Origin: a virus
IMG/VR virus record: IMGVR_UViG_3300021368_001768
Coordinates: 1 to 24,425 of that record
DNA: 24,425 bases
Direction: 5' to 3' (one strand)
A program made the translations under genes and the position numbers. Each line of letters opens with the position of its first letter. Positions within the stretch are counted from its first letter, which is position 1. The notes beneath the pieces are model-generated. The model had not been told where the DNA came from. It saw nothing but the letters and a program-made list of their open reading frames with translations, and did no database searches. Shown here in pieces: positions 1 through 19,188 of this stretch.

Positions 1-3000
1 ATACTGGTTCATATTTTTTTTCTATTGTTTCTTCTGACAAGAAGCAAATTAATCTGTATTCATCAAGATCATTTGTAGGTGGTAGCAACTACTTAAAATT
101 TGCTCCACAAGATGATGGGCATAGATTTACATTATATTCTCAGAGATCTAATGAAATTGCTCCACAAAAAATTCTTAAGAAGTTTCCTCTGAATCCAAAT
201 ATTAAAAATGGAAAGGCAGAAGAGACTATTCCTGGAACAACAGGAATGCTTATCAATGGCGTAGAGATATCAAACTATAAATCTGATGATAAAATATACT
301 TTGGTCCCGTAGAGAAGGTAAATCTTCTGAACGGTGGTAGTGGATATGATGTCATTAACTTACCAGTTATCACTGCAACTAATCCAACCAGCACTGGAAC
401 AACTGCTATTATTCAACCAGTAATTAGTGGATCTTTTGAGAAGGTATATATTGATCCTCAAGAGTTTGATATTCAGAACATTGTCTCTATCGGTATCACC
501 GGTGGTAATGGAACTGGTGCAGTATTAGAAGCAAAAACTGCTGATAGATTTAGGAATGTATTCTTCGATGCTAGAAATCAAACAGCTGGTGGCGGTATCA
601 ATACTGTTACAGATCAAATCGTATTTAATACTGACCACAACTTTGTGGGCGGTGAAGAAATCATCTACAACACAGAAGGTAATACCACTGCTGTTGGTTT
701 TGGCACAACTACACTTGTCAACACTGCGTCCTACTTTGCTAAAATTGATAACAATAGGACGATCCAATTATTTGAAACAATAACTGATTACAATGCTGGT
801 ATTAATACAGTAAATCTGACTGATGGTGGTAATGGTATTCAAAAATTCTCTCCATCTAAGTCTAAGAAGACAATTACTAGTGTTGATGTTATTAATGGTG
901 GTAGTGGATATACCAATAGAAATCTTATTGTAAAACCAGTTGGTATTAATACAAGAACAAGTAGTATTGATTTTGCCAATCATGGATTTATTGATGGTGA
1001 TATTATCAATTATGTAAATCACACTGGAGATTCTTGGGAATCACCCGATATTGTTGGATTTGTTTCATCCTTTACTTACAAAGTATTAAAGGTAGATGAT
1101 AATTCTTTCAAATTAGCAAATATTGGTGTTGCCGGAACTGATCTTACCAAATATGATCAGAGAGAACCTGTTAGATTTGAATCGGTAGGTTCTGGATTAC
1201 ATAATTTTAAATTCCCAGACATTTCTGTAAGTGTCCAGTATACGTCTGTTGGATTTGGTACAACAACTCAAACATATCAGACTATTAATGCTGTTCCTGT
1301 TGTTAGAGGATCTATCATTGATGCTTACTTGTCCGAATCTGGAACTGGATATGGATCAACAATTCTAAATCATCATCAAAGACCTCTTATCAGTGTAACG
1401 ACTGGAAAAGATGGACAATTGAATCCATTCATTGTTAATGGTAAAATTGAATCTGTTTCTGTTGATAGTGGTGGTTCAGAGTATACTTCACTTCCTGATG
1501 TTGAAATAAATGATCCAACCGGTTTTGGTATTGGAGCAGATATTAGACCCATCATCAATAATGGAAAATTAACAGACGCTGTTATTGTTAATCCTGGTAT
1601 TGGTTACTCTACCGATACAACAATTAGAGTTAGATCAACAGGAATTAATGCCCTCTTTGATGCTGATATTAGATCATTGAGTGTTATTAACAATGAAAGA
1701 TTTGATGATGAGTTGCTACAAGAAACTGACAATAAACTGCAGTATTCTGTACTGGGATATTTTAGTGCATTAAGAACTGCTTTTGGGGAAGATTCGTCTA
1801 CTGCTTCAGGCATTATTGGATGGGCTTATGATGGAAATCCAATTTATGGACCTTTTGGATATTCTGACCCAGAAGATACTAACTCATCTGCTGCTAGAGT
1901 AAGAAGTGGATATGTTCTCAATGCATCCAATGTTTTTGACAGACCATCCGCTTTTGCTAATGGTTTCTTTGCTGAAGATTATCAGTATACAAATAATGGA
2001 GACCTTGATGAATACAATGGTAGATTTGCTAAGACACTTGAATTCCCAAATGGTGTTTATGCTTACTATGCAACCTTAAACTCTTCAAATAATCCAGAGT
2101 TCCCATATTTTATTGGTAACAAGTATAGATCTAATACTTTACCAGAAAATATTTCTCTAAATCAAGAGTTTGATTTTAATTCATCAAAATTACTTAGAAA
2201 TACTTTCCCATATAAAGTATCAGATGCGAATGCTGATAATGACTTTATTATTGAGACAAGTGAGATTATAAATCAAAAATCAATTGTTGAGGGACAGTCC
2301 AAAGGCACTGTTACTGGATTTGACATTGTTAGCTCTGGAAAAAATTATAAAGTAAATGATATTCTTAATTTTGATGCCACAGATAGTGGTGGTGGTTTAA
2401 TTTCTAAGATATCAAAAATTAAGGGTAAAACTATTACCGATGTAACAACAACGGTTGAAGAATTTTCTGATGCAGTATTTACTCTTGATAGTGATAGAAA
2501 AGTAAAAGTTACTATCAAACCTCAACACACTATTTTAAATGGTGAGAGTATTGTTATTTCTGGATTCTCAACGAGTTTGACAGAACTAAATGATAACTTT
2601 ATTGCTGGAGTAACAACTTATAGATCTGCACTTATTCAGGAAATCCCAAGTGGAACTGCTGGATTAACAACTGAAATTTATGTTGCTAATATTCCCCAAA
2701 ATGTTTCAGTTGGTAGTAGTATTTCTATTGGATCTGAAACCTTTGAAATTTTTGAGGTATTTAAGAATAACAATGCATTAAAAGTTGAGAGAAGTTTAAC
2801 AGGTGTTTCTCACACTACTACTTCTATTGTCAACTTTAATCCAAATTCACTAACCATTGATTCTAACTTAGAATTCTTTGACTCGAAGGTAAATGATAAA
2901 GTATATTTTAACCCACAACAGTCTGTTGGTGTTGGTACAACTGCTGGACTGTCCTCAACGGTCACTTTCTCGTTTGGCAGTGGCACTGTAACAAGAGATA

Positions 3001-6000
3001 TTCCAACTAAGTCAATTATTCTCGAAGATCATCCTTTTGACAACAATCAAAAGGTTCGTTTTGTGACGGGTGGAGCAACAATATCGATTTCTACATCTCC
3101 AACTGGATCACTTGATCCATTACCTTCTACAGTTTATGTTATTAACAAAAATGTAAACACCATTGGTATAAAAACCTCTTTAGATAGTTCAGAGGTTTAT
3201 TTCAGAACCAATGGATCTAACACCAGTCTTTACTATTTTGAATCCACCTTCAATCAAATCTTAGGTAAAGTTCAGAAAGTAAGATCTCAGGTATCTGTAT
3301 CAACTTTCCATGAACTAAAACCAAATGATGTTATTAGTTTGAATGTAAATCCATCACTCTCTGTTGGAATTGGTACTTCTACTGCTGTTGTTGTAAAGAG
3401 AAATGTTTCTAATGGAAATATTCATTTAAATCCATTTGAATTTACATCAGCTGCTATTGATACTACTAGAAACATAATTACAATTAATGATCACGGTCTG
3501 AAGACTGGTGATAAGGTAGATTATGATGCTGATACTGTTGCTAGTGGACTAAGCACCAATACATATTTTGTTTATAGAGTTGATGATGATAGAATTCAAC
3601 TGTCAACGACAAATGTAAACGTATCGGCAAATCCACCAGTAGTTGTTAATATAACTGGTTCTGGTGGAGCTAATCAGACAATATCACCAATTAACCCAAG
3701 AATAGAATCGGTAAAAGATAATCATTTAGTATTTGATTTGTCAGATTCTTCTCTGCAAGATCATCAACTAAAAATTTATTATGATAATGAATATAATAAT
3801 GAAATTGTATCAATATCTACGACTGGATCTTTCACGATTGTTGGATATGGAACTGCTGGTGTAACAGCAGGTGCAGCTCTAACTATTTCTTATAATCAAG
3901 ATTTACCAAGAAGACTTTATTATAACCTGGAAAAGGGTGGATATATCAGCACTGCTGATAAAGAGGTCTCTAATTATTCAGAGATCATGTTCACTGATAG
4001 TGCATATGTTGGTAACTACAAAGTATCTCCTATTGGATTTACAAGCACTAGTTTCAATGTATTCTTAAGTGAAATACCCGAAAATCTATCATATGCATCA
4101 ACTGAATGTAATGTACTTTCGTATGATACAAACTCAGTTAATGCTACTGGTTCTATTTCCAAAATTGATATTATATCTGGTGGAAGTAATTATGAAAGAG
4201 TTCCTGTTTTCTCTGGTGTAACTGGATCAAATGGTACTGATGCTAGTATCGTCCCAACCTCAGATACAATAGGTAATGCAGATAGTGTTAGAGTTATTAA
4301 TGAAGGATTTGAGTATTCTTCTGATAAAACACTGCAACCAACTGCCGATATTGATGATTTCATTACAATAAGAGATTCTAACACTGTTGGAATTGTAAGT
4401 ATTGTTAGTGGAGGTAAAAATTATATTAGTGCTCCTACAGTTTCAATTGTTAATTCAGTAACACGTAAAAAAATTGATAGTGGTTTACTTCTCCCAATTA
4501 TTACATCAAATGCTATTACTGAAGTTATAATTGAAGATGAACCAAAAGGACTTCCAGAAACCACTGTAGATCTTTTCACAGAAAATAACACTAACGGTGT
4601 TAGTGTTCAAAAAGTATTCACAAATGATAATGTTGGTATTGTTACCTGCGAAATTACTACACCAACTATTGGATTTGCAGAAAATCCATTTAAGATTGGT
4701 GATAAAGTCTTCTTGGAAGGTGTTGTAAACTATACAACAACAGGAACTGGATATAACTCTCCAGATATTGGATATAAGTTCTACACTGTTACAAACTATG
4801 ATACAACAAGCAGTGTTCTTGATAGAGTAACTCTTGATGGAACTGATTATATTACTGCTGGTAGTGCAGGTATTGCGAAAACTGAACAGGGTGCTGTCCC
4901 TGTTCTGATTAAAGAGAGTGATTATCCTTCATTGATTGCCATACAGAAGAGATCCGACTTCTTAGTTGGTGAATCTCTAATTGTTGGTGGATTGGAAAGA
5001 GATCTGTTTATCACATCTTATGAAGAGACTACGATTAAGGTTAGTGGATCTTACGAACTGTCATTGAATGATGAAATAACAGGATCTGATTCTGGAAATA
5101 AAGGAACAGTTTCTGATATTGAAGTTGGTGAAGGTATATTTAAAGTTGATTATAAGATTGAGAAAAATATTGGTTGGGAAGATAATGTTGGTATGTTAGA
5201 CCTGGATAATCAGGTTGTATCTGATAATGATTATTATCAAAATCTTTCTTATTCTATCAAGAGTCCACTAACTTACAAAAAAACAACAGAGGTTGTAAAG
5301 GGTATACTGCATACAAGCGGTCTTAAAGATTTTGCTGATACTGGTATTACTTCTGAAGCTCCAGCTGGTGTAGGATCACGAAATAATGGAGATTTAATTG
5401 GAGATGATGGTGTTGATGATCAGACATCTATATTCAAAGATATAATCGATGAAGTAAGAGTAGATACACTTTATAATTTTGATTTGGTAAGAGATATTGA
5501 TGTTGTAGATGATACTTCCAAATTTATTGAATTTAAAAACAAGAGATTAACTGATTTTATTGATTGTAGAACTAATAAAGTTTTGACAATAGATGATATT
5601 AGTTCTCAATTCTCTAATGTTGATGGAGACCCAAGTCAATTTGCTACTTTATTTGATTTTGATAGTGGCAGAACATATTACAATATTTTGGCTAGAGTTA
5701 ATAATACTGATGGAGACGAAGTTCAGTTAAGTGAATTTGCTGTTCTTAGATCAAATAACGATTTCTTCATTCTTGATAAAGGAACGGTAGTTAATAATGG
5801 AGATAATTTACTCCATAATGCTGGTGAAGAATATGGTTCTTTCAGCATTGTTACTGATGCATTTGGATCCAGCAGTTTAAGGTTTACTCCAGAAGAACCA
5901 CTTAATACAGATTACGATCTAAAATTAAGAATAAGTGAGTTTAATTCTTCACTTTCTGGAATAGGTACCAGGGATCTTGGTGTTGTTAAGTTGGTTAGTT

Positions 6001-9000
6001 CGAACGGAATAACAACAGCAACAGGAATTACTACAACATTATACACTGAGGAAGGATCCAAATTTGAAGGATTATTTGCTGAAGTGCAAGTAATTGATAA
6101 AAATAATGATGAAATGAATTATGTAAGTGCTTACATGACTCATGATGGAACTGATACTTTTATTTCTGATTTCTATAGTGATACTAATGAAGACACTAAT
6201 GCACTCACAGTAGATGAAATTGGTGAGTTTGCTGGTGATATTGTAAGTGGAATGGTTTCATTCAATTACACCAGTGATAAAGATAATGATGTAGAAATTA
6301 GATCTAGAATAGTTGGATTTGGAACCACAGGAATGGGTTCTGGAACATATAGATTTAAATCTACTGGTCAGATAGATGGATCAGAAAGATCTGTAATTTA
6401 TCAGTCTGGATTTAACGAAAATGTTTCAGCTGCCGCAACTATTCTATCAATTAGCAATAATTTATTCAATGCTGTCAAATCTTACGTTAAGGTAAGTGTT
6501 GGAAATACTAGTGCTCTTCATCAAGTTATGATGATTAGAGACAATAATCAGGATATTTATTTACAACAATCACCTTTCTTGTCAATTGGTAGTACAAGTG
6601 GATTAGGAACTTTCGGATCTAATATAACTTCTGGAAATCTAGATCTTCATTTCACACCAGATAATTCTCAAACTGTAGAGATATCAACTTTCAGTGAATG
6701 TTTCTATCAAGCACAAGACTCTGTAAATATTCCAAATTCTCTTACATTTAATTCTATAACTGAGAGTATTGATTATGATTTCTATAATGCCATTAACGGT
6801 GATAGGATTAATAAGAGACAATTTAAGGTAACTCACGATGGAGTTCCAATTTTTGCCAAGGTATTCAATCCAGATGATAATACGGAACTTAATCTCTCTA
6901 CTGGCACATTCTCAATTACAGATCACTTCTTCTCAAATGGAGAGCAATTAAATTATACAGCAAACTCCACTTTTGCTGGGATTGGTGCTAGTGTCATGCA
7001 CTATAGAAATGATGTTGGAATCGAAGGCGAATTACCTCCAACAGTATTTGCTGTTGTTGGATCAGATCCAGATAGTTTCCAAATATCAACAACCAAAGCT
7101 GGAACAGCAGTTACATTTACCTCAGTTGGTGAAGGTAATTATCATATGCTTGAGATGTCTGTGAGAAACTCTAAGTCTCTCATAGCTATTGATAATCTCG
7201 CCCAATACCCAGTAACATTCTCTCCAATATCTCACCCATTAGGAGATAATGGTGGATCAATTGGAATTGGAACCACCGTATTCTCCTTAAGTGGTATTTC
7301 TACCATTTTACCCAACGACGTTCTGAGAGTTGATGAAGAATATATGATTGTTCAAAACGTTGGTTTTGGAACAACTAATGTTGGACCCATTACTAATAGT
7401 GGAACGATTGGTCTTGTAACTGTAGAGAGAGGTGCTATTGGAAGTGCTGCTTCTACACACCAGGATTCCACTGGCGTTGCTACAGTCTTTAAGGGTGCTT
7501 ATAACCTTGTTGGTCAGGATATTTTCTTCACTCAACCACCAAGAGGAAATCCTCAAATTCAGACTACTGATTCTAATTTACCATTCCCAACTTCACATTT
7601 CAATGGTAGAGCGTATCTGAGACAGGATTATACTACAAACAGAGTTTATGATGATGTTTCTGCTAAGTTTACCGGAATAGGTCAAACATTTACTTTAAAT
7701 GTCGGTGGTGCTAATACTGCTGGTATTGGTACTACTGGTGGAAACGGTGTTCTGTTTATTAATGGAATTTTCCAAACTCCAACAACTGCTAATAATCCAG
7801 CAAATAACTTCTCTATCATTGAGGATAATTCTGTTGGTGTAAGTAGTGTTCTGTTCAGTGGTATCAGAGATCAGGCTGAAAATATCTTCACAAGTGTTGC
7901 TGACGTGAATATCGGTCAACTGCCTAGAGGCGGTATGATTGTATCACTTGGTTCAAGTGGTGGTCTTGGATATGCACCATTAGATGGCGCAATCGTGGCA
8001 CCTACAATCGGAGCAAATGGTAGTATTGGTAGTGTGGTTGTTGGATTTGGTTCAACATCTGATATTAAGAATGTAACTGACGGTTACATGATCAGCACTG
8101 CAACTTATAATGCTTCTACTGGTGTTCTTGAAGTAACTACGGAAGAACCACATAAGTTTACTCAAAATGTTGAAGAAGTCTTCATGGAAGGTCTTCATTT
8201 TGAATGTGCTGCAGAGCACGCAGGTGTAACCACCACCATCTTCCCAGATGGTAGCAGCCCATTCGGTCAAAGATTCCCTGTACTTGGAATTACATCAGCA
8301 ACAACATTTACCGCAAACGTAGGTATATGCACAATTCCCCATAATTACGTTGGATTTGGTTCAGTTTATAGTTTCCTCAGTGATTTAACTGTTGGTTCTG
8401 GTTATAGAGAGTGGGGTGGCGGAACAGTTTCTGTTGCCGTGACCGACCTTATCTATCCACATAGATTTGTAAGTGCTGGAGTTAATTCAATCACTGATAA
8501 TCTTGGCAATACTTATACAGCAACAAATGCTGAATATGATTCACCAACTGGAATTTTGAAACTCACTATTCCTAGTCATGGATTGACTGATACTAATACA
8601 ATTGGCATAGCAACGGGTAGTTTGGTATTCACTTGCTCAAGAGATAACTATCAAACCAACCATGCATATCCAAGAGCAGTATCTCTCACTAGAAAGAGAA
8701 GAGGTGAATCTGGTGGTGATCCAGCACATAATGTAAATCTGGGAATTACTACATTCACTACTCACACCCTTAGTGTTGGTGTTGGATCTGGCGGTGGCGC
8801 TGGTTCTGGTGCAATAATCAACCACGTAGTTGGTGCTGGCGGAACTTTAGGGTTCTCCGTTGGTGCAGCAGGAACTGAATACGTTAATCCACACATCGAT
8901 GTTTCTGAACCAGTATATGAAAATCTTGAGATTGAGGGTATATCAAGATTGGGTCTTGGACATACAACAGATACTGGAATTGGTTTATTGTTGGATGTAC

Positions 9001-10442
9001 AAGTAGGTGCTAGCTCATCAGCTATTGGTATTGGATCAACTTATCATGAGGTAACTGGATTTAAGATTACAAGACCTGGATATTCATTCAGAAGAGGTGA
9101 TGTATTCAGACCAGTAGGATTAGTTACTGCTTTAGGATTATCTCAACCTGTTAGTGATTATACATTAACTGTTTTGGATATCTTTACTGATAATTTTGCT
9201 TCATGGCAGTTTGGTGAAATTGATTATATCGATTCTATCAAGAATTTCCAAGATGGTTCTAGAAAGAGATTCCCATTATTCTATAATAATGAACTCTTGA
9301 GTTTTGAGGCAGCAGATGATTCTGATGTGGATCTTGCCGCTGCTCTATTAATCATTATTGATGGTGTTATTCAAGAACCAGGATCTGCATATACTTTTGA
9401 GGGTGGAACTTCATTCTCATTTGCTGCTCCTCCATTAGAAGAATCAAAAGTTGATATCTTCTTCTATAGAGGAACAAGAGGAGAGGATACTGTCCTGGTA
9501 ACTGGTGTTAACCAGTTGATTGAAAAGGGTGATCAAGTTCAAATCTTTAAGAATAATGCAATAAGAACTACCAAATCTCAAGGTAAGAGAAGAGTATTTA
9601 ACTTAGATGCTTCTGACAGAATTGAAACTAATAAGTATCTTGATCAAGGAATAAATGATTCCGATTACAAACCACTGAACGTCATCAAGCAAAAGGTTGA
9701 TTTAACGATTAATGGTGAAAAGGTTTATAAGACTAGAGACTCTATCGAAGGTCAAGTATTCCCCGTATCTAAAGTTATTGGTGACTTCTCCGCAAGTGAC
9801 ACTCAAATCTTTGTTGATAATACTGATTTGTTTGATTATGGTTCTCCTGCATCAATTGGATTGATGGTTGTTGCTGGTATTGGAAGTACTGATGCTGTAG
9901 ATAATGTAGAGTTAATTTCTGGAGTAACTAACATTGAAGGTTTCTCTGGTATTGTTACTGGTATTACAACAACTACAGGCACTGGCGGTCACCCACTAGC
10001 ACTTGAGTTCTCTCTTGAGCAAACAACCTTCCCCGGATTGTCTGTTGGATACCCAATTTACATTGATAACACAAATATTGGAACAGGAGCAACTTCAGTA
10101 TTCGATTCTGATGCATCAGTCATTGGAATTGGTCAAACATTCCTGGATAATGTCTACAATATCAGCGCTCTGCATATAGATGGTACTGTTGGAATTATTA
10201 CCTGTAATATTCATTCCGAAAGTCCTGTATCTGGTCTTTCAACATTCGGTGATGAGCATAATCCAGTTGGTAACTTCTCTTGGGGAAGATTATCAGGATT
10301 TAGCAGAGGTGGATCCGCGATATCAATTGGTGTTACAGGATTCACTGTACCAGACGCAACAACGGGTATATCAACATATCCAATCGTCCAAAGAAGAAAT
10401 GTTGGACTTCGCGAAAACGGTTCATTACCAAAACAATTGTAA
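1..10442 (+). CDS. Giant virion structural protein with YHYH-type domain, 5'-truncated (positional equivalent of T4 gp7)
   Basis: This is a giant structural protein, probably part of the baseplate wedge or its periphery. The frame is open from base 3, so the ATG at 246 is internal: the 80 codons before it read as ordinary protein of the same style, and at least 3,479 codons are present. Visible parts are GxGY beta modules (about 320-540, 885-960, 1320-1680, 2315-2420, 4160-4590), a YHYH-type domain at 1818-2130 (GWAYDGNPIYGPFG, then LDEYNGRF and YPYFIG-like blocks), and repeated segments that begin H-x-x-x-x-G-(D/E) and end in VDDDxxQL-like strands. Further on are a YYQNLSYSIKSP block near 5235, two INGVxQxP-type blocks (about 7750 and 9355), and two ATYNxxTGVL-type blocks (8089-8240, 8500-8690). 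The C-terminus (9190-9800) is less repetitive. I see no signal peptide or membrane segment. It lies directly upstream of gp8, where T4 has gp7 (about 1,030 residues), but I see no clear sequence match to gp7. Virion role: sure. Exact position in the particle: inferred. Confidence 0.88.
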   Translation, partial: TGSYFFSIVSSDKKQINLYSSRSFVGGSNYLKFAPQDDGHRFTLYSQRSNEIAPQKILKKFPLNPNIKNGKAEETIPGTTGMLINGVEISNYKSDDKIYFGPVEKVNLLNGGSGYDVINLPVITATNPTSTGTTAIIQPVISGSFEKVYIDPQEFDIQNIVSIGITGGNGTGAVLEAKTADRFRNVFFDARNQTAGGGINTVTDQIVFNTDHNFVGGEEIIYNTEGNTTAVGFGTTTLVNTASYFAKIDNNRTIQLFETITDYNAGINTVNLTDGGNGIQKFSPSKSKKTITSVDVINGGSGYTNRNLIVKPVGINTRTSSIDFANHGFIDGDIINYVNHTGDSWESPDIVGFVSSFTYKVLKVDDNSFKLANIGVAGTDLTKYDQREPVRFESVGSGLHNFKFPDISVSVQYTSVGFGTTTQTYQTINAVPVVRGSIIDAYLSESGTGYGSTILNHHQRPLISVTTGKDGQLNPFIVNGKIESVSVDSGGSEYTSLPDVEINDPTGFGIGADIRPIINNGKLTDAVIVNPGIGYSTDTTIRVRSTGINALFDADIRSLSVINNERFDDELLQETDNKLQYSVLGYFSALRTAFGEDSSTASGIIGWAYDGNPIYGPFGYSDPEDTNSSAARVRSGYVLNASNVFDRPSAFANGFFAEDYQYTNNGDLDEYNGRFAKTLEFPNGVYAYYATLNSSNNPEFPYFIGNKYRSNTLPENISLNQEFDFNSSKLLRNTFPYKVSDANADNDFIIETSEIINQKSIVEGQSKGTVTGFDIVSSGKNYKVNDILNFDATDSGGGLISKISKIKGKTITDVTTTVEEFSDAVFTLDSDRKVKVTIKPQHTILNGESIVISGFSTSLTELNDNFIAGVTTYRSALIQEIPSGTAGLTTEIYVANIPQNVSVGSSISIGSETFEIFEVFKNNNALKVERSLTGVSHTTTSIVNFNPNSLTIDSNLEFFDSKVNDKVYFNPQQSVGVGTTAGLSSTVTFSFGSGTVTRDIPTKSIILEDHPFDNNQKVRFVTGGATISISTSPTGSLDPLPSTVYVINKNVNTIGIKTSLDSSEVYFRTNGSNTSLYYFESTFNQILGKVQKVRSQVSVSTFHELKPNDVISLNVNPSLSVGIGTSTAVVVKRNVSNGNIHLNPFEFTSAAIDTTRNIITINDHGLKTGDKVDYDADTVASGLSTNTYFVYRVDDDRIQLSTTNVNVSANPPVVVNITGSGGANQTISPINPRIESVKDNHLVFDLSDSSLQDHQLKIYYDNEYNNEIVSISTTGSFTIVGYGTAGVTAGAALTISYNQDLPRRLYYNLEKGGYISTADKEVSNYSEIMFTDSAYVGNYKVSPIGFTSTSFNVFLSEIPENLSYASTECNVLSYDTNSVNATGSISKIDIISGGSNYERVPVFSGVTGSNGTDASIVPTSDTIGNADSVRVINEGFEYSSDKTLQPTADIDDFITIRDSNTVGIVSIVSGGKNYISAPTVSIVNSVTRKKIDSGLLLPIITSNAITEVIIEDEPKGLPETTVDLFTENNTNGVSVQKVFTNDNVGIVTCEITTPTIGFAENPFKIGDKVFLEGVVNYTTTGTGYNSPDIGYKFYTVTNYDTTSSVLDRVTLDGTDYITAGSAGIAKTEQGAVPVLIKESDYPSLIAIQKRSDFLVGESLIVGGLERDLFITSYEETTIKVSGSYELSLNDEITGSDSGNKGTVSDIEVGEGIFKVDYKIEKNIGWEDNVGMLDLDNQVVSDNDYYQNLSYSIKSPLTYKKTTEVVKGILHTSGLKDFADTGITSEAPAGVGSRNNGDLIGDDGVDDQTSIFKDIIDEVRVDTLYNFDLVRDIDVVDDTSKFIEFKNKRLTDFIDCRTNKVLTIDDISSQFSNVDGDPSQFATLFDFDSGRTYYNILARVNNTDGDEVQLSEFAVLRSNNDFFILDKGTVVNNGDNLLHNAGEEYGSFSIVTDAFGSSSLRFTPEEPLNTDYDLKLRISEFNSSLSGIGTRDLGVVKLVSSNGITTATGITTTLYTEEGSKFEGLFAEVQVIDKNNDEMNYVSAYMTHDGTDTFISDFYSDTNEDTNALTVDEIGEFAGDIVSGMVSFNYTSDKDNDVEIRSRIVGFGTTGMGSGTYRFKSTGQIDGSERSVIYQSGFNENVSAAATILSISNNLFNAVKSYVKVSVGNTSALHQVMMIRDNNQDIYLQQSPFLSIGSTSGLGTFGSNITSGNLDLHFTPDNSQTVEISTFSECFYQAQDSVNIPNSLTFNSITESIDYDFYNAINGDRINKRQFKVTHDGVPIFAKVFNPDDNTELNLSTGTFSITDHFFSNGEQLNYTANSTFAGIGASVMHYRNDVGIEGELPPTVFAVVGSDPDSFQISTTKAGTAVTFTSVGEGNYHMLEMSVRNSKSLIAIDNLAQYPVTFSPISHPLGDNGGSIGIGTTVFSLSGISTILPNDVLRVDEEYMIVQNVGFGTTNVGPITNSGTIGLVTVERGAIGSAASTHQDSTGVATVFKGAYNLVGQDIFFTQPPRGNPQIQTTDSNLPFPTSHFNGRAYLRQDYTTNRVYDDVSAKFTGIGQTFTLNVGGANTAGIGTTGGNGVLFINGIFQTPTTANNPANNFSIIEDNSVGVSSVLFSGIRDQAENIFTSVADVNIGQLPRGGMIVSLGSSGGLGYAPLDGAIVAPTIGANGSIGSVVVGFGSTSDIKNVTDGYMISTATYNASTGVLEVTTEEPHKFTQNVEEVFMEGLHFECAAEHAGVTTTIFPDGSSPFGQRFPVLGITSATTFTANVGICTIPHNYVGFGSVYSFLSDLTVGSGYREWGGGTVSVAVTDLIYPHRFVSAGVNSITDNLGNTYTATNAEYDSPTGILKLTIPSHGLTDTNTIGIATGSLVFTCSRDNYQTNHAYPRAVSLTRKRRGESGGDPAHNVNLGITTFTTHTLSVGVGSGGGAGSGAIINHVVGAGGTLGFSVGAAGTEYVNPHIDVSEPVYENLEIEGISRLGLGHTTDTGIGLLLDVQVGASSSAIGIGSTYHEVTGFKITRPGYSFRRGDVFRPVGLVTALGLSQPVSDYTLTVLDIFTDNFASWQFGEIDYIDSIKNFQDGSRKRFPLFYNNELLSFEAADDSDVDLAAALLIIIDGVIQEPGSAYTFEGGTSFSFAAPPLEESKVDIFFYRGTRGEDTVLVTGVNQLIEKGDQVQIFKNNAIRTTKSQGKRRVFNLDASDRIETNKYLDQGINDSDYKPLNVIKQKVDLTINGEKVYKTRDSIEGQVFPVSKVIGDFSASDTQIFVDNTDLFDYGSPASIGLMVVAGIGSTDAVDNVELISGVTNIEGFSGIVTGITTTTGTGGHPLALEFSLEQTTFPGLSVGYPIYIDNTNIGTGATSVFDSDASVIGIGQTFLDNVYNISALHIDGTVGIITCNIHSESPVSGLSTFGDEHNPVGNFSWGRLSGFSRGGSAISIGVTGFTVPDATTGISTYPIVQRRNVGLRENGSLPKQL
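1818..2130 (+). other. YHYH-type domain inside the giant structural protein
   Basis: The block GWAYDGNPIYGPFG (1818-1859), followed by LDEYNGRF (about 2004-2027), FPNGVYAYYAT (about 2043-2075) and FPYFIGNKY (2100-2126), follows the conserved order of the YHYH domain found in secreted bacterial proteins and in large marine phage structural proteins. The signature that names the family reads Y-A-Y-Y here (2058-2069), so both histidines are absent. This suggests the fold is kept as a structural or binding module without a histidine-dependent function; that last step is inference. Confidence 0.8.
8089..8690 (+). repeat. Tandem divergent protein module (two copies) in the giant structural protein
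   Basis: Two copies of a module start with ATYNASTGVLEV (from about 8101) and ATNAEYDSPTGILKL (from about 8521). Each continues into a histidine-containing turn (EEPHKF, PSHGL) and a strand ending in FEC or FTC. The second copy then has a DNYxxxHAYPRA block (about 8641-8676). The same block type is common in large virion proteins of marine T4-like phages. The repeat is visible in protein only; the DNA of the two copies has diverged. Confidence 0.65.
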
Positions 10443-10476: not shown

Positions 10477-12021
10477 ATGGCAGCTGTCGTAACAGATCAA
10501 TTTAGACTTTCTAATGCCAGTAATTTTGTAGATTCGGTTACTTCTGCAAGTAATTCCTATTATGTGTATTTGGGTCAACCAAGCCCAACATCACCATCTG
10601 CAGGATTTGGTAGGACATCAGATTATGATACTAACGTTCCAGTCCCTACTGACAATCTTCAATACTCTGGATTTTACAAGAAAAATATTCTTTTTGGAAA
10701 GAAGGTAAACAGTGCAAATATAAGAAGAGTTATTAGAAAAGTAACTTGGACGGTGAATAATCGCTATGACATGTATAGACATGATTATAGCATAGAGAAT
10801 CCTACTCCAAACTCAAACTCAAGTAGGTTATATGATTCTAATTTCTATGTAATGAATAGTGACTTTAGAGTCTATGTTTGTATTGATAATGGTTCTTCTG
10901 GAACCAACACTAAGGGTAATAATTCTCAAGACGAACCAACATTCACTAATCTAGCACCATCCGCTGCTGGAACTAGTGGTGATGGATATGTTTGGAAATA
11001 TTTGTTCTCAGTATCACCAAGTGATATCATTAAGTTTGACTCTACCGAATATATTGTAGTTCCTAATGATTGGGCAACTTCAACAGATACTCAAATCTCT
11101 GATGTAAGAGAGGCAGGCGATTCTGATGTTCAGAATAACCAAATCAAAAAGGTTTATATTGATAATGCTGGCTCTGGATATAGTTCAGGTACTGTTAATA
11201 TACTTGGTGACGGCAGCGGTGCTAAAGTTTCTATCTCGGTTGATAGTAGTGGTGCAATCACAGACACTACTGTAACTACTGGTGGTAAAGGATATACTTA
11301 TGGTATTGTCGATCTTGGAAGTTTGCAACCATCTGGTTCAATACCAAATCCAGCAAAATTAATTCCAATTATTCCACCCTCCAGAGGGCATGGATATGAC
11401 ATTTACTCAGAGTTAGGTGCTGATAAAGTATTGATGTATGCAAGGTTTGATGCATCAACAAAAGATTTTCCTGTAGATACTAAATTTTCTCAGGTTGGTG
11501 TTATAAAAAATCCTCAACAGTTAAACTCTACAAATATATTCACAGAAAGTCAATTTACTGCACTTTCTGCGATTAAATTAGCAGATGACTTCACAGGCAC
11601 TCCAACTATTGGTGGAGAAATGACGCAAACAAGAGATGATGGAAAAATTGCTAAGGGATATGTAGCGTCATATGACAGTGAGACGAAGGTTTTAAAATAT
11701 TTCCAAGATAGGTCTTTGTATTTTGGAAATGAAAAAGATCAAACTGATTATGATGATGTAACCAATGGTTCTACAGTTTACGCATTCGAATCATCGGCAA
11801 ATACCATCTCTCCTTTTAGTGGTTCTATTAATACTGGATTCACTGGTAGCACAGTAACTGTGGGTAGTAAGTTGGTTGATTTGGGAACAACTTTTACAAA
11901 TGGGCTTGCTAGTCCAGAGATAAATAAAAAAACAGGCGAGTTAATTTATCTTGATAACCGCCCAACAGTCCAAAGAGACATAAGACAAAAAGAAGACGTA
12001 AAAATTATTCTGGAATTCTAA
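10477..12021 (+). CDS. 8: Baseplate wedge subunit gp8
   Basis: This is baseplate wedge protein gp8, which in T4 forms a dimer in each wedge and contacts gp6, gp7 and gp10. Recognisable T4 gp8 features are the block GDGYVWKYLF at residues 168-177, EYIVVP at 191-196, and the C-terminal GELIYLDNRP at 487-496 followed by a VKIILEF ending. At 514 residues it is much longer than T4 gp8 (334). The extra length falls between the conserved middle and end and contains a GxGY beta module (residues about 226-280) and a TMTQTRDDG-like G-x-V segment (about 380-411). The start at 10477 follows a late promoter; no strong Shine-Dalgarno is visible, and the ATG at 10472 is out of frame. The next gene begins 6 bases after the stop. 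Confidence 0.94.
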   Translation: MAAVVTDQFRLSNASNFVDSVTSASNSYYVYLGQPSPTSPSAGFGRTSDYDTNVPVPTDNLQYSGFYKKNILFGKKVNSANIRRVIRKVTWTVNNRYDMYRHDYSIENPTPNSNSSRLYDSNFYVMNSDFRVYVCIDNGSSGTNTKGNNSQDEPTFTNLAPSAAGTSGDGYVWKYLFSVSPSDIIKFDSTEYIVVPNDWATSTDTQISDVREAGDSDVQNNQIKKVYIDNAGSGYSSGTVNILGDGSGAKVSISVDSSGAITDTTVTTGGKGYTYGIVDLGSLQPSGSIPNPAKLIPIIPPSRGHGYDIYSELGADKVLMYARFDASTKDFPVDTKFSQVGVIKNPQQLNSTNIFTESQFTALSAIKLADDFTGTPTIGGEMTQTRDDGKIAKGYVASYDSETKVLKYFQDRSLYFGNEKDQTDYDDVTNGSTVYAFESSANTISPFSGSINTGFTGSTVTVGSKLVDLGTTFTNGLASPEINKKTGELIYLDNRPTVQRDIRQKEDVKIILEF

Positions 12022-12027
12022 AAAAAG

Positions 12028-15000
12028 ATGGCACAAAAAACCGATTTAAACGTCAATCCATATTACGACGATTTTGACGCTGCGGATAATTTTTACAAGG
12101 TTTTATTTAAGCCTGGATATCCTGTTCAGGCAAGAGAATTAACTACTCTCCAATCAATCCTCCAAAACCAGATTGAAGACTTTGGTAGTCATATATTTAA
12201 AGAAGGCTCAATTGTTATACCTGGTAATATAGCATATGATGGTCAATTTTATGCGGTAAAGTTAAACCCAACTAATCTGGGTGTTGATGTTTCGGTTTAC
12301 ATCAATAATTTTATTGGTAAAAAAATCACAGGACAAAATTCTGGTACAACTGCCACTATCCAATATGTTGCTATGCCTGATGGCAACAACATTGAGGATT
12401 TGACAATTTATGTAAAATATTTGGACTCTGATAATAATTATGAGTTCAATCAATTTCCAGACAATGAATCTTTCTTTGCAAGTGAGAGTATTGTATATGG
12501 TAATACAACAATTGCTGCAGGAACGGTATTTGCTTCTTCATTAGCTTCAAATTCTACTGCAATTGGATCTGCTGCTTTTATTGGAGATGGTGTATTCTTC
12601 ATCCGTGGTTACTTTGTAAATGTAACTAAGCAAACTCTTCTTCTTGATGAGTATTCAAATACTCCATCATATAGAGTAGGTCTTAAGATAACTGAATCTC
12701 TTATTAATGCAAAAGATGATTCTTCGTTGTATGATAATGCAAAAGGTTTCACTAACTATGCTGCACCTGGTGCTGATAGGTTAAAGATTGGACTTACCTT
12801 GTCCAAAAAACTCATTAGTGATACTAATGATACTGATTTTGTTGAATTACTGAGAGTAGATGATGGAAAGATTAAAATACTTGAAACTAAAACTGAATAT
12901 AATAAACTTCGTGATTATTTGGCAGAAAGAACATATGATGAATCAGGCGACTATTCAATCACACCATTCCAACCATCAATCCACAACTCATTAAATGATA
13001 GACTAGGAAATGATGGTCTATTTTTTAGTGATGAATTGACTGATGAAGGTAATACTCCTTCAGATGATTTGATGTGTGTCAAATTGTCTCCTGGTAAGGC
13101 ATATGTAAGAGGATATGATGTAGAAACTATATCTGCTAAAATTTTAGACGTTGAAAAACCAAGAGATACTAAGAAAGTAACTTCAACAAGTATTCCCTTT
13201 GAGATGGGTAACCTTCTCAGAGTTTTTGATGTATCTGGTATTCCACATTACAGAGAAGCAGTTGACCTTCACGATCAAGTAGATGGTGGTGGTACTGTAA
13301 TCGGTTCTGCTAGAGTTTACTCTTTTGGTGCTACAGATGCCACTTATGCTGGCGATGCAACTCAGTTTGATTTATATCTATATGATATTCAAACATATAC
13401 TGAACTGACAATAAATCAACAACTGTCTTCAATGCAGGCACCTGTTGGATCTTACATTAAAGGTAAGAGTAGTGGTGCTACTGGTTTCCTTGTAACCAAC
13501 GTTGGTGGTGGTGCAACTACAATTAGAATTAGACAAACATCAGGTTCTTTTGCACCTGGTGAGCAAATTCAGGTCAATGGTGTTGATGATGTTCCTGTTG
13601 TAAACTTCCAGGCTGGTCATAGAACAATTACTGAAATTAGAGTATTTGATTCTAAAGATATTAAGTCTGCTGTTCAAGCCAGTGGTGGCGGATTCCCTGG
13701 TTTTACCGCAACCGCAGTTCTTTCCTACACTGACATCCCTGGCGGTACAATCAGTGGTAGTAATACATTTACACCTGATGGGGGTGCATACACTGAATTG
13801 CAAGTTGGTGATATTATTTCATATTATGCTAGTGGTGGCGGTGACAGAAGATGGAATAGAGTTACTGCTGTAATAAGTGGTGGAACTTCATTTACAATTG
13901 CTGCTCTGAGTAGTGCTGTTGCTGGAGTTTTTGATGTCTCTGTTGAAAATGGTACATACACTTCAATTAAAAAAGCAGTATCCGAAATCAGAAATGAAGA
14001 TAAAGGATTTTTATATGCTGAATTACCTGATGCAAATGTAGCATCTGTAAGTCTCAGTGGATCAGAACTGCATGTTACAGAACAGGTTACTGGTAAAACT
14101 ATTGCAAGTAGTCAAGTTACAGTATCAACTTCAGACTTCCCAGACATTACAAATTCATTCTTAACTCCTTTTGATGCTGAAAGATATTTGGTATCTAGTA
14201 GTGGAGGTGGTATTGGCACTGTAACGTCAGATAGTTTCGCATTGAATGCGAATAGTACAACTGCAACTCTGTCTGGACTAACTGATGGAAGTAATGTTGT
14301 AATTAATGCAACTTTAGTTAAGCAAAATATTCAAAGTAAAGTAAAAGAATTTAGTAGATCTAAAGTTCTTAATATTGATTTATCCAAATATACTAAGTCT
14401 GGAACAGGTATTAACACCTCAGTTGGTGATGGACTTACTCATAATATGTTCTATGGACTTAGAGTTCAGGATGAGGAAATTTCTTTAAATGTTCCAGATG
14501 TAACTAATGTAGTTGCTGTTTATGAAAGTCTTGACGCATCAGCACCAACCTTAGATGTATTTGAGTTTACCTCTACTGCTGATGTTACTAACAATGCAGT
14601 AATTGGCGAAAACTTCACAGGTACTGATTCTAAGGCAATTGCTAGAGTTGTTACCAAACCATCCGCTAACCGTTTAGGTATTGTTTATCTTTCTCCTCAA
14701 AAGTTCAATGCTGGTGAGGAAGTAACATTTGATGAATCTAACATTGTTACCAATATTCAAACTATTGTTACTGGTAACTTTAAAGATGTTACAAATTCCT
14801 TTGGTTTAGATAAAGGACAGAAAGATCAATATTATGATTATTCAAGATTGGTTAGAACGAAAGATTCTAATATTCCTTCTAGAAGACTGTTAGTTGTCTA
14901 TGACCACTATATAATTCCTACAGACGATGATGGCGATGTATTCACCGTTCTGAGCTATGATAGTGATAGATTTACAAATGATATTCCACTCATTGGTAAG

Positions 15001-18000
15001 AACCAAGTAAGGGCAACTGATACCCTGGACTTCAGACCAAGAGTTGCTGAGTTCACCTCAACCACATCCTCACCATTTGACTTCCCCGCAAGATCTTTCA
15101 CAGCGGTTCCTAAATTAATTCTTGCTCCAAACGAGTCTTCTCGTTTAGGTTATGATTATTATCTTGGAAGAATTGATAAGATTTACATTGATAAGTTTGG
15201 TACATTCATTGTACAAAAAGGTGTATCTGGTATTGATCCTAAAGCACCAACAAAGATTGACACAGTAATGGAGATTGGTACAGTTACCCTTCCTCCATAT
15301 CTCTACAATCCAAGTGATGCACAACTGGATCTTGTAGATAACAGAAGATATACCATGAGAGACATTGGGTATATCGAAGATAGAGTTGAGAATTTAGAGA
15401 GAGTTACTTCACTTTCACTTCTTGAGTTAAACACATCCACATTACAAATTCAAGATGTAGATGGAAATAACAGATTTAAGAGTGGATTCTTTGTTGATGA
15501 TTTTAGAAACAACGAGTTTATTGATCCTGTATTATCTCAGGCTCAGGTTGAACCAGCATCTCAAGAATTATCTCCAGTTGTTAGTAGAAATACTTTAAAG
15601 AGTCAGTTAGCACCAGCTGAAGAACTGATCGATACTGTCTTAGATCTTTCCACTAATTTCAATCTTCTTGATTCAAATGTTAAGAAGACTGGTAAAGCAG
15701 TAACTCTTGATTATACAGAAAATGGTTGGATTGAGCAACCTCTTGCTACCAGAGTAGAGAATGTAAACCCATTCCACGTAGTCCTTTATACAGGAAGTGT
15801 GGAGTTGAACCCTGCTCAGGATAGTTGGGTCAGAACCATCAGGATACCCCCCAGAAACGTCTTTGGTGGTGCCTCTAACATCTCTTTGGGTGGTGGATGG
15901 CGTGTCTTTGCTGGAACGGTAACACAGGTCAGCACACAGGATGTTGTGGTCTCCTCTGGTAATGATGCATTCATGAGATCAAGGAATACTGAGTTCGATA
16001 TCTCAAACATCAAACCACTTACCAAGTTCTATCAATTCTTTGATGGAAATGGATCTGTTGATTTTGTACCCAAACTTCTTGAAATCGCTAGTGATAGTGC
16101 TCTTGAGAACTATGGTGCATCTGGTGAGTTCACAGTTGGTGAAACTGTTCATGGCACCGATTCTGAAGGCAACATCTTAATCAGATTTAGAGTTGCTCAA
16201 TCAAACCATAAGAAAGGACCATTCAATGCTCCTACTTTAACATATAATATTAACCCATATGTAAAGAGTGAAAATCTTCAAACCTCTTACAGTGCTTCAT
16301 CAAAAGTTCTGAACGTTGATACATTTGCACTTTCTGAAGAAGCACAGGGTAGATACTTTGGTTATGTAACCAGAGGTATGAAGTTGGTTGGTCAAGAAAG
16401 TGGAACAACTGCTTATCTGAAAGATCTCAGACTGATTTCTGACAACTATGGTGATCTGCAAGGTACATTCTTCCTGAAGGATCCATATGCTAACCCAGCA
16501 CCTTCTGTAAGAATTGAGACTGGTACTAAGTCATTCAGAGTTACAAATAGCCCAACTAATGCTGAACCACTGCCTGGCAGCAACTTGATTTCAAGTGCTG
16601 AGACAGAATACAAGGCAGAAGGTATCTTCCAGGTCAGACAACTTGTTCAGACCAGAAGAACTATCAACCGTTTCGTCGATCCACTTGCTCAGTCATTCAC
16701 AGTTGGTGGTAACATCGATACAACTTCTGATCCTACAGGAGCAAATGATGATACCAACGGAGCATATCTGACTGCTGTTGATCTGTTCTTTGCTAATAAG
16801 GACAGCAACAACAACCCAGTAAGAGTTGAGATTAGAACTGTTGAACTGGGAACTCCAACAAGAGATGTTATCGGAGATCCTGTTACACTGAGACCTGATG
16901 ATATCACTATCTCCAGAACTGGAGAAATTGCTACTAAGGTTTCCTTCCCATACCCTATCTTCCTTGAGCCATCAAAAGAATATGCGATTGTTATCGTATC
17001 TGAGGCAAGTGATGAGTATGAACTGTGGTGCGCTCGCATGGGTGAGGTCACTGTAAATACTCAGTCACTGCCTGACGCTGAAGCAGTTAGATATACCAAG
17101 CAATTTGCTCTGGGTAGCTTGTTCAAGTCACAGAACGGAACAATCTGGACTGCTGACCAGTATCAAGATCTTAAGTTCAAACTGTATAAGGCGAACTTCA
17201 CTTCCACCTCAGGTACTGCCTACTTCTATAATCCAACTCTGGATGAGAGCAATGGTTATGTTCAGGTTCTTGGTAACAATGCAGTTACCACTCTGCCTAA
17301 GACTCGAACACTGGGTATCACTACTGCGTATGATGTAGTAACTCAAAATACTCTGGTTACTGGTAGAAAGGTTGTTGGTTCTGAAGATTTTGTAAGTGCG
17401 ACTATTGTTGGGACGGGTAGTTCCGTTGCCAATATTAGTGTCAATTCTGGCGGAACAGGTTATGTATCCGATACAATGGTTGATACTTATAATATTGTTG
17501 GTGAAGGAACTGGTCTAAAACTCAATATTACTGCTGATGCGGATGGTGTTATTACTGGAGTATCTAGAGCTGTTGATGGTTCTGATATTCAACACGGAAA
17601 TGGATATCAACAAGGTGATATAGTTGGTATTGTAACATCCACTGTTTCTTCTGCTACTGGTTCTGGTGCAAGAATAAACATTACATCTAAAATTGGTGTA
17701 GATACTCTCTACTTGAGTGATATTAAAGGTGATACCTTTACAACTGGTATTGGAGTAAGTTTCAGAGATGATGTTGGAACTTTAGTTTCACTTGCCAATA
17801 CTACCATTCTTTCTTACACCGAAACCGGTGGTGTTAATTCTGGTGAATATCTGAAAGTCAATCATTTTGATCATGGTATGTACTCAGATACTAATGATGT
17901 GATCATTAGTGACGTACAAACTAATATTGCACCAACAACACTTTCTTCCGACTTAACATCTCAAGAAGTTGATATTATCAATGTAACAGATTCTTCCAAT

Positions 18001-19188
18001 TTTGCCAACTTTGAAGGAATGCCTGTAAGTGCAACTAATCTTGGATATGTATTGATTGAGAATGAAATCATTGCATATGATGCAGTAAGTGCAGGTGTTC
18101 TTGAAATTGCAACAAATGGTAGAGGTATTGATTCTACATTAACAATTGAACACTCTAATAATCAAAAGGTTTCCAAATATGAACTGAATGGTGTTTCTCT
18201 GAGAAGAATTAACACCACACACGATATTAGTAATATTGATATTGGACTTGATCATTATCATGTCAGGATTAACAGAGTATCACCTGGTGTAGATAGAAGC
18301 AGTGATAATCTGACTTCAAGAGCACCTGAGCTTTCATTTAATAATGAAGCAGATCTTGGTGGAACTAATATCAAGGCATCTGAGAACATTCAGTTTGGTT
18401 CATTGATCCCCAATTACTATATTGCTACACCTGGTTCTTCTACATCTGCAACTGCTAAGATTAGAACTGTAACAGGAACTAGTGTTGATGGATCTGAAGT
18501 TTCCTTTGTAGATAGTGGATTTGAGGACGTTGAACTCAACAAAGTAAATCTACTGAGTTCTACTAGAGTAGTTGCTTCTCAAGTAAATGAGAATTTACAT
18601 CTCTCTGGTCTTCCTAGAAGTAAGTCATTTACTACTGCAGTAACTTTAACTACATCTGATAATAATCTTTCTCCTATAATTTACACTGATGCTGCATACA
18701 CAGAATTCAGAAATAGTCGTGTAAACAATCCAGTTACTGACTATGCGGGAGACAATAGAGTTAACTCACTATTCTTTGATCCTAACGCAGGTGTTTATGT
18801 TTCTAACGTTGTAAATCTTACTCAACCAGCAACAACACTGAAACTCATAATTGCTGCTTATAGACACTCCACTGCTGATATAAGAGCACTTTATAGTCTT
18901 GTAAGAGCAGATTCTTCTGAAGTAGAACAAGAGTTTGAGTTGTTCCCTGGTTACGATAATACAATTTTATCGTCAAGTGGAGAATTGCAAGTTACTGATC
19001 CTCTTAAGAATAGCGGAAGATCTGATGTATTCGTACCAGCAAGTCTTGAAAATCAATTCTTAGAGTACGAATTTACTGCGAATAACTTGGATCTATTCAC
19101 TGGATATAGAATCAAATTAATTATGGCAGGTACAAGTCAGGCTCATGCACCAAGAATTAAAGACCTTAGAACTATTGCTGTAAGATGA
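12028..19188 (+). CDS. DUF4815-type giant virion structural protein (baseplate/fibre-associated)
   Basis: This 2,386-residue virion protein has the DUF4815 signature. Its N-terminus reads NPYYDDFDAADNFYKVLFKP, then VQARELTTLQSILQNQIEDFG (residues about 31-51). The second conserved part (residues about 999-1171) contains DTLDFRPRV, YYLGRIDKIYID, RRYTMRDIGYIEDRVENLER (a probable helical hairpin or coiled coil) and RFKSGFFVDDF. It is followed by QPLATRVENVNPFHVV (about 1237), a DPLAQSFTV to YELWCARMGE domain (1551-1673), and a C-terminal domain from about 2193 that ends in APRIKDLRTIAVR. Repeated GxxSGxxGxV segments occur near residues 98, 475, 860 and 1450, and GxGY modules near 1805. The gene lies between gp8 and the neck genes, where T4 has gp9-gp12 and wac, so it probably forms a peripheral baseplate or fibre-attachment part. 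The family is recurrent in marine myoviruses, but its place in the particle is not known to me. Confidence 0.88.
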   Translation: MAQKTDLNVNPYYDDFDAADNFYKVLFKPGYPVQARELTTLQSILQNQIEDFGSHIFKEGSIVIPGNIAYDGQFYAVKLNPTNLGVDVSVYINNFIGKKITGQNSGTTATIQYVAMPDGNNIEDLTIYVKYLDSDNNYEFNQFPDNESFFASESIVYGNTTIAAGTVFASSLASNSTAIGSAAFIGDGVFFIRGYFVNVTKQTLLLDEYSNTPSYRVGLKITESLINAKDDSSLYDNAKGFTNYAAPGADRLKIGLTLSKKLISDTNDTDFVELLRVDDGKIKILETKTEYNKLRDYLAERTYDESGDYSITPFQPSIHNSLNDRLGNDGLFFSDELTDEGNTPSDDLMCVKLSPGKAYVRGYDVETISAKILDVEKPRDTKKVTSTSIPFEMGNLLRVFDVSGIPHYREAVDLHDQVDGGGTVIGSARVYSFGATDATYAGDATQFDLYLYDIQTYTELTINQQLSSMQAPVGSYIKGKSSGATGFLVTNVGGGATTIRIRQTSGSFAPGEQIQVNGVDDVPVVNFQAGHRTITEIRVFDSKDIKSAVQASGGGFPGFTATAVLSYTDIPGGTISGSNTFTPDGGAYTELQVGDIISYYASGGGDRRWNRVTAVISGGTSFTIAALSSAVAGVFDVSVENGTYTSIKKAVSEIRNEDKGFLYAELPDANVASVSLSGSELHVTEQVTGKTIASSQVTVSTSDFPDITNSFLTPFDAERYLVSSSGGGIGTVTSDSFALNANSTTATLSGLTDGSNVVINATLVKQNIQSKVKEFSRSKVLNIDLSKYTKSGTGINTSVGDGLTHNMFYGLRVQDEEISLNVPDVTNVVAVYESLDASAPTLDVFEFTSTADVTNNAVIGENFTGTDSKAIARVVTKPSANRLGIVYLSPQKFNAGEEVTFDESNIVTNIQTIVTGNFKDVTNSFGLDKGQKDQYYDYSRLVRTKDSNIPSRRLLVVYDHYIIPTDDDGDVFTVLSYDSDRFTNDIPLIGKNQVRATDTLDFRPRVAEFTSTTSSPFDFPARSFTAVPKLILAPNESSRLGYDYYLGRIDKIYIDKFGTFIVQKGVSGIDPKAPTKIDTVMEIGTVTLPPYLYNPSDAQLDLVDNRRYTMRDIGYIEDRVENLERVTSLSLLELNTSTLQIQDVDGNNRFKSGFFVDDFRNNEFIDPVLSQAQVEPASQELSPVVSRNTLKSQLAPAEELIDTVLDLSTNFNLLDSNVKKTGKAVTLDYTENGWIEQPLATRVENVNPFHVVLYTGSVELNPAQDSWVRTIRIPPRNVFGGASNISLGGGWRVFAGTVTQVSTQDVVVSSGNDAFMRSRNTEFDISNIKPLTKFYQFFDGNGSVDFVPKLLEIASDSALENYGASGEFTVGETVHGTDSEGNILIRFRVAQSNHKKGPFNAPTLTYNINPYVKSENLQTSYSASSKVLNVDTFALSEEAQGRYFGYVTRGMKLVGQESGTTAYLKDLRLISDNYGDLQGTFFLKDPYANPAPSVRIETGTKSFRVTNSPTNAEPLPGSNLISSAETEYKAEGIFQVRQLVQTRRTINRFVDPLAQSFTVGGNIDTTSDPTGANDDTNGAYLTAVDLFFANKDSNNNPVRVEIRTVELGTPTRDVIGDPVTLRPDDITISRTGEIATKVSFPYPIFLEPSKEYAIVIVSEASDEYELWCARMGEVTVNTQSLPDAEAVRYTKQFALGSLFKSQNGTIWTADQYQDLKFKLYKANFTSTSGTAYFYNPTLDESNGYVQVLGNNAVTTLPKTRTLGITTAYDVVTQNTLVTGRKVVGSEDFVSATIVGTGSSVANISVNSGGTGYVSDTMVDTYNIVGEGTGLKLNITADADGVITGVSRAVDGSDIQHGNGYQQGDIVGIVTSTVSSATGSGARINITSKIGVDTLYLSDIKGDTFTTGIGVSFRDDVGTLVSLANTTILSYTETGGVNSGEYLKVNHFDHGMYSDTNDVIISDVQTNIAPTTLSSDLTSQEVDIINVTDSSNFANFEGMPVSATNLGYVLIENEIIAYDAVSAGVLEIATNGRGIDSTLTIEHSNNQKVSKYELNGVSLRRINTTHDISNIDIGLDHYHVRINRVSPGVDRSSDNLTSRAPELSFNNEADLGGTNIKASENIQFGSLIPNYYIATPGSSTSATAKIRTVTGTSVDGSEVSFVDSGFEDVELNKVNLLSSTRVVASQVNENLHLSGLPRSKSFTTAVTLTTSDNNLSPIIYTDAAYTEFRNSRVNNPVTDYAGDNRVNSLFFDPNAGVYVSNVVNLTQPATTLKLIIAAYRHSTADIRALYSLVRADSSEVEQEFELFPGYDNTILSSSGELQVTDPLKNSGRSDVFVPASLENQFLEYEFTANNLDLFTGYRIKLIMAGTSQAHAPRIKDLRTIAVR

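Follow-up and report, generated by a model that had tools for sequence, protein, structure and literature searches.

A histidine-free half of the YHYH domain in the gp7-like baseplate wedge protein of a T4-like cyanophage

Results

Genomic context of the half-domain

The window, the whole 24,425-base stretch of virus DNA analysed here, carries a gene set resembling that of a T4-like cyanophage. It begins within a giant gp7-like open reading frame (ORF), with the gp6 side outside view, and a gp8 homologue follows (Table 1). The giant ORF (3-10442) matches the baseplate wedge subunit family phrog_2885 over residues 2-3280, which covers most of the protein (E 0, 2632 bits). Synechococcus phage S-SRM01 is the nearest named phage for the gp8 homologue (59.7%), and the tail sheath stabilizer of the window is nearest to those of S-SRM01 (74.7%) and S-SKS1 (73.9%).

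A whole-ORF scan places a PF14240 (YHYH) match at residues 590-694 of the giant protein (E 5.6e-25), the only such match in this fragmentary record. The excised piece scores 90.6 bits against a curated cut-off of 25 (E 1.6e-25), which establishes family membership, and the Pfam scan lists no other family for the domain. The sequence-only reading, which had described a YHYH-family domain lacking its histidine site inside a phage baseplate protein, is borne out by the PF14240 and phrog_2885 matches: its conserved blocks lie where it placed them, the score is well above chance, and no better-fitting Pfam family is listed.

Table 1. Features of the window that bear on the half-domain
Feature	Position	Strand	Remarks
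Giant baseplate wedge (gp7-like) ORF	3..10442	+	3479 aa visible; 5' end outside window
gp7 stretch with beta-repeats (NPGIGY type), in place of YHYH N-terminal half	1452..1736	+	sequence; modelled mainly as strands
YSVL, MAFFT counterpart of diagnostic YHYH	1743..1754	+	weak: gaps here in profile alignment
PF14240 match, C-terminal half-domain	1770..2084	+	profile 82-184 of 193
Ala at usual His place (HS[PK]I or one place on)	1803..1805	+	His in 66/129 gp7-class, 20/21 other phage copies
GWAYDG block with invariant Asp	1818..1835	+	sequence, alignment
LDEYNGR block	2004..2024	+	conserved family-wide
YAYY, second Y.Y. site (YAYYAT from 2058)	2058..2069	+	Pfam ~176-179; not diagnostic YHYH
FPYFIG block	2100..2117	+	sequence
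gp8 baseplate wedge homologue	10477..12021	+	phrog_438, PF09215; genomic context, after giant ORF

The match is not full length. The best PF14240 match in 24 of 26 cellular genomes runs from profile position 1-5 to 193, whereas the window copy spans only 82-184 and thus begins beyond the upstream YHYH (profile 74-77). Positions 1212-1800 of the window, scanned alone against Pfam, gave no PF14240 match. The GWxxDG, LDxxNG, Y.Y. and FPY scaffold is present, and cellular PF14240 proteins such as WP_239051980.1 of Deinococcus sp. KNUC1210 share with the window the order GWxxDGxPxY, LDxxNGR, P.G.Y.Y, PY. In these cellular proteins, however, profile positions 1-81 hold the [AG]H and YHYH histidines, a region for which the window has no match; its 141-residue domain contains neither His nor Cys.

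Two further genes of the window were noted. Residues ~190-320 of the neck protein at 22111-23517 (head closure Hc2, phrog_460) match baseplate, tail-fibre and virion families including phrog_2885, which suggests a module common to the neck protein and the giant ORF product. The ORF at 12028-19188 (2386 aa) matches DUF4815 (PF16075, E 4.9e-61) and phrog_358, of unknown function.

The diagnostic YHYH lies upstream of the retained half

The sequence-only reading had taken the YAYY at 2058-2069 for the motif that names the family, with both histidines lost. YAYY does stand there, but the diagnostic YHYH lies upstream of it. Two cellular YHYH proteins were aligned with the window, and pieces of the Deinococcus protein were scanned against Pfam for coordinates. 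In both cellular proteins YHYH precedes G[WF]AADG, in the context NAHxQPxGxYHYHG, and the position of the window YAYY reads YYYA or YGYV. On the profile, YHYH starts at 74 and GWAADG at 98, and a piece ending just before the Y.Y. site stops at 175.

Conservation points to the same site. The upstream histidine pair is found in all 84 distinct cellular copies, and it is to this site that, on our reading of the conservation, the family name refers. At the second site, 65 of 83 cellular copies have a histidine at position 2 and two have one at position 4, the usual reading being YHY[YVF]; what is replaced at YAYY, across phages, is one common histidine (position 2) and not both. In phage proteins that have the upstream motif, the second site is YAYF or WAYF (L167, L194, L210, L222, L351, L353-L356 and L359-L364, some of these rows being one protein fetched twice); the exception is L166 (L278 on the tree, where it groups with cellular proteins), which reads YVYF. 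Because phage proteins whose upstream YHYH is intact also read YAYF there, YAYF or YAYY is not a mutated YHYH; as far as these sequences go, it is the normal second-site state of phage copies.

One observation favours the original equation. Twenty divergent cellular paralogues were drawn without motif selection by a Pfam search of 26 cellular genomes, with sites assigned by Pfam match positions. Four of them (L337, L341, L343, L346) read YHYH at profile ~174-176, in addition to a His-rich upstream site. The upstream site of the 20 reads YHYH in 15, YHWH in three and YHHH in two (L337, L342), with both histidines present in every case. If the internal duplication described below holds, equating YAYY with YHYH would be right for the repeat and wrong for the site.

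The histidine-free state is general among gp7-like copies

PF14240-type copies are matched in 463 of 50,697 phage records. Counted by first name word, records with the domain and with a gp8 homologue number 372 and 373 for Synechococcus, 61 and 61 for Cyanophage, and 24 and 24 for Prochlorococcus; since the domain is recorded about as often as gp8, nearly every recorded T4-like cyanophage probably carries a copy.

Copies were compared in several samples: the best 80 of 599 relatives (L002-L081); the best 80 of 252 cellular loci; and 80 of 90 loci of a second viral set, one selecting pattern of which was the N-site. Instances without a regex anchor were left out (60 of 345 in one set), and 314 anchored instances yielded 234 distinct ones. 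The gp7 class was defined by flank similarity of at least 40 bits, giving 128 gp7 and 22 other copies, or 129 and 21 after one S-PM2 copy, whose gene follows gp6, was moved by hand. Four 'other' rows (L196, L207, L233, L290) also look gp7-like, and weak gp7 calls such as L203 (43 bits) may be wrong because the flank profile includes gp7 repeats.

An upstream YHYH-like motif occurs in 84/84 cellular copies (selected by patterns that required the N-site or its neighbourhood and so favour this motif), in 10/21 other phage copies and in 0/129 gp7-class copies. The loss is general to the gp7-like copies, as the sequence-only reading had asked, and is no local mutation. A loss confined to the window phage, or a sequencing or assembly effect, can be given practically no weight: all 129 gp7-class copies share the state, and the frame is open throughout.

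In print, YHYH domains are predicted to combine a conserved histidine triad with Asp in a Zn site, and a tail-associated hydrolase has been proposed, with AOO14285.1 as the example (PMC7824862, in the portion available to us). Following this prediction, the half-domain might still be a metal-dependent hydrolase that uses ligands other than the canonical histidines, and the Asp of GWxxDG would suit such a role: it is kept in 134/134 phage copies in frames of at least 1000 aa, in 16/16 in shorter frames and in 84/84 cellular copies, although GWxxDG is part of the anchor by which copies were found. We regard this as very improbable, given a domain with no His or Cys to offer. When the 134 large-frame phage copies are aligned, the canonical [AG]H position is filled by His in four, the first YHYH position in one and the second in one, never two together. 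Of the 129 gp7-class copies, 28 have no His anywhere in the counted stretch.

A Pfam survey of 30 virus records noted where on the profile each match starts. Frames of at least 3,663 aa gave 20 matches, of which 17 start at 68-94 and the others at 25, 27 and 48. The 11 matches in frames of 267-745 aa all start at 2-21. Six records have frames of 1,152-2,562 aa, with starts at 8-20; in two of the six the match is split.

Two pairs of second-site and HS-site histidines seemed to avoid each other. The HS-site His co-occurs with the position-2 His of the second site in 0/6 cellular copies (65/77 without the HS-site His) and with the position-4 His in 0/64 gp7-class copies (20/62 without it). Covariation by a ligand swap is not claimed, as an 89-row phage tree built without those sites left only two independent pairs on supported branches, too small a number (p 1). 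Separately, the phage copies L174 and L170 have an insert, which we take to be cupredoxin-like from its look, after the GxxYDGYPIYG block and ahead of the remaining domain; their upstream site is degenerate.

Named phages and their full-length neighbours

Among ten named phages, nine have the copy in a gene that immediately follows gp6 or a baseplate wedge gene standing in for it; in P-SSM2 this gene lies between gp6 and gp8. S-SKS1, the tenth, has its copy in sequence after gp6 that bears no annotation. Pfam finds a single match in seven of the phages, three each in S-SM1 and S-RIM2, and two within one frame in S-H34. Identity to the window over the domain is 60.6% in S-SKS1, 54.7% in S-SRM01, 51.4% in P-SSM2 gp7 and 52.7% in S-T4. 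Like the window, the gp7-like proteins of P-SSM2 and S-SKS1 lack YHYH; the HSPII histidine is kept in P-SSM2 and absent in S-SKS1 and the window (class counts in Table 1). The S-SKS1 homologue (NC_020851.1, L307 5380-12377), between gp6 and the next baseplate gene, has an open frame of only 1601 aa, possibly reflecting a frameshift or a missed gene.

In six cyanophages (S-WAM1, P-TIM40, S-SSM4, S-ShM2, P-RSM6 and S-RIM14) a giant frame of 6200-8573 aa reads EYAH[LVF] for YHYH. The next gene is a frame of 528-592 aa with YHYH intact, the third in the row carries the annotation 'baseplate wedge tail fibre connector', and three of the six have a further divergent copy without YHYH in a frame of 1,154 or 1,186 aa. 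The full-length virion proteins of S-WAM1 (YP_009325075.1), P-TIM40 (YP_009188175.1) and S-RIM14 (AOO14286.1) have a second half with YAYF that is alike to the window half; unlike the window, they keep GGHP...YHYH and HSK and are encoded by separate genes. In S-SSM4 (L354 1207-2979) a LLHGSGGNG stretch follows the YHYH domain; Pfam finds no second domain there at E 0.01, and the stretch presumably recalls alpha/beta hydrolases.

Predicted structure and conservation

An AlphaFold2 model of the half-domain with the upstream gp7 stretch, based on 77 gp7 copies, has a mean pLDDT of 79.3, with values per ten residues of 86-94 over 131-220 and 80 at 121-130; the half-domain is thus predicted to fold without the N-terminal half. 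It superposes on the BFVD model of the 526-aa P-TIM40 YHYH protein over 112 columns (rmsd 2.0, prob 1.00). A model of a full-type phage copy was poor (pLDDT 57.2) and was left out of the comparison. In a viral structure search, proteins named YHYH (S-RIM14, P-TIM40) ranked seventh and eighth, behind six large proteins. In the PDB, a sequence search gave no relevant relative, its hits being four chains of the kinase BTK with E values of 0.045 and above; none of the 19 matches listed by Foldseek with the half-domain model reached E 0.001, and none of 82 chains reached Z 2 in VIA-align. The lack of solved relatives does not by itself establish a new fold.

Within the 266 aa compared among 77 gp7 copies, the C-terminal half is the best conserved part, with 27/104 invariant columns against 8/85 and 1/33 upstream (the latter around YSVL) and 2/44 downstream. 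Compared with L002 over 130 codons, the half-domain shows mostly silent changes (dN 0.055, dS 0.643, dN/dS ~0.09) and is under purifying selection. Selection therefore tells nothing particular about the half-domain, the remainder of the shared ORF being just as constrained (dN 0.039, dS 0.430).

These data bear on a rival account, in which the half-domain would touch the host surface as a receptor- or glycan-binding module and owe its retention to binding specificity, not to a part in assembling the baseplate. Pelagimyophage YHYH domains have been listed among host-recognition domains (PMC7029224, in the portion available to us). In the six relatives above, a full YHYH protein and an annotated fibre connector gene follow the giant protein. 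Tail binding modules are usually variable between close relatives, however, and the half-domain is the reverse. A binding role is plausible, yet this account of why the half-domain is kept seems to us rather unlikely.

Phylogeny and internal duplication

The sequence-only reading had also suggested a borrowed cell-surface fold, and YHYH domains are indeed common in secreted proteins. A recent borrowing from cells finds no support in a tree of the C-terminal half (82 of 138 representatives; 22 of 79 inner branches open, bootstrap not settled), in which a 100/96 branch separates 56 phage rows from 25 cellular rows and one viral-contig row. Weakly supported branching (80/82) places full-type phage copies next to some of the gp7 copies. 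The gp7 class does not form a single clade here and needs at least five changes on the best tree, which leaves a single loss in the gp7 lineage unsupported. The upstream YHYH needs at least three changes on a quick phage tree.

To compare the two halves, full-type copies were split ahead of GWxxDG, and hhalign was used to align the resulting profiles. The N-site falls in register with the second site (D..N[AG]...P.G.YHY), with scores of 33.1 (41 rows) and 26.8 (34 cellular rows); controls on the cellular profile did not exceed 17.3 (60 column shuffles) and 18.9 (reversed). With 94 rows the score is 32.9 (E 4.1e-5, probability 70.0%); 100 shuffles gave no more than 20.3 and the reversed control 20.0, and a global alignment of the halves pairs GIALNGV with IGWAADGF. 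The hhalign probabilities for full-type halves are modest (82.9, 42.6 and 70.0%). The gp7 half alone scores 19.4 against the N-terminal half, within the shuffle range, so that the case for duplication rests on the full-type profiles and not on the gp7 half.

These alignments suggest that the YHYH domain likely arose by internal duplication, with gp7 carrying the second repeat only. The divergent cellular paralogues with two YHYH sites fit such a duplication. Four more paralogues, L344, L345, L347 and L348, have two GH......[YF]HYH sites at a spacing of 55-58 residues, of which the second lies past the end of the Pfam match, and may possibly represent a two-site form of the domain.

Discussion

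The reading that best accounts for the locus, and that we hold with reasonable but not high confidence, is that the gp7-like baseplate wedge protein of this T4-like marine cyanophage carries a solo second half of the YHYH domain, a histidine-free and non-hydrolytic beta module. The full domain would consist of two related halves, the first with the histidine cluster ([AG]H, YHYH) and the second with the GWxxDG, LDxxNG and Y.Y. scaffold. In the gp7 lineage the first half would have been lost or reduced beyond recognition, with gp7 repeats abutting in its place, while the second would have been retained under purifying selection. The product would be a folded, stable beta module of the baseplate, serving subunit contacts or weak cell-surface binding, with neither His-coordinated metal nor hydrolysis; any metal chemistry would belong to the full-length copies. 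In the window the half-domain is probably a structural or binding/adhesive piece and no enzyme. Counting against this reading, GWxxDG keeps its Asp, and LDxxNG its Asp and Asn, in all or nearly all copies, a retention that would also fit another metal or a His-independent activity.

YHYH domains in phage tails are already in print, to judge from the available portions of PMC7824862 and PMC7029224, and a diatom paper, also available in part, lists the family. The published example, AOO14285.1, is a giant structural protein (L367; KX349303.1 61787-80383) with a single Pfam match (65822-66403) that reads EYAHL, not YHYH; its neighbour AOO14286.1 (L360) has the intact motif. Like the window protein, AOO14285.1 is a giant structural protein with a degenerate copy; unlike it, it has a longer match (27-184), EYAHL in the YHYH place and a retained HSPII. 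The histidine triad and Asp set out in the available text of PMC7824862 are not found together in the window domain, which has no histidine.

A broader proposal, to which we give somewhat less than an even chance as a whole, joins three elements: an ancient duplication, with halves that each end in P.G.Y.Y.; baseplates carrying the solo, non-enzymatic second repeat, some with complete copies as neighbours; and a tail-hydrolase idea that would fit, if at all, the neighbour gene and not the baseplate protein cited as its example. The portions of the open literature on YHYH available to us mention neither a half-domain form nor an internal duplication and report no tested function for the domain.

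Telling a histidine-less half-domain apart from the intact full-length form corrects the inference drawn from the Pfam label where a baseplate protein bears it, and redirects the published hydrolase prediction to the neighbour gene. The half-domain and its full-length neighbour form a natural pair with and without the histidine site. Two BFVD entries annotated YHYH, A0A5B8IDC5 (Mimiviridae sp. ChoanoV1) and A0A5J6VJS1 (Megaviridae environmental sample), also match the half-domain model.
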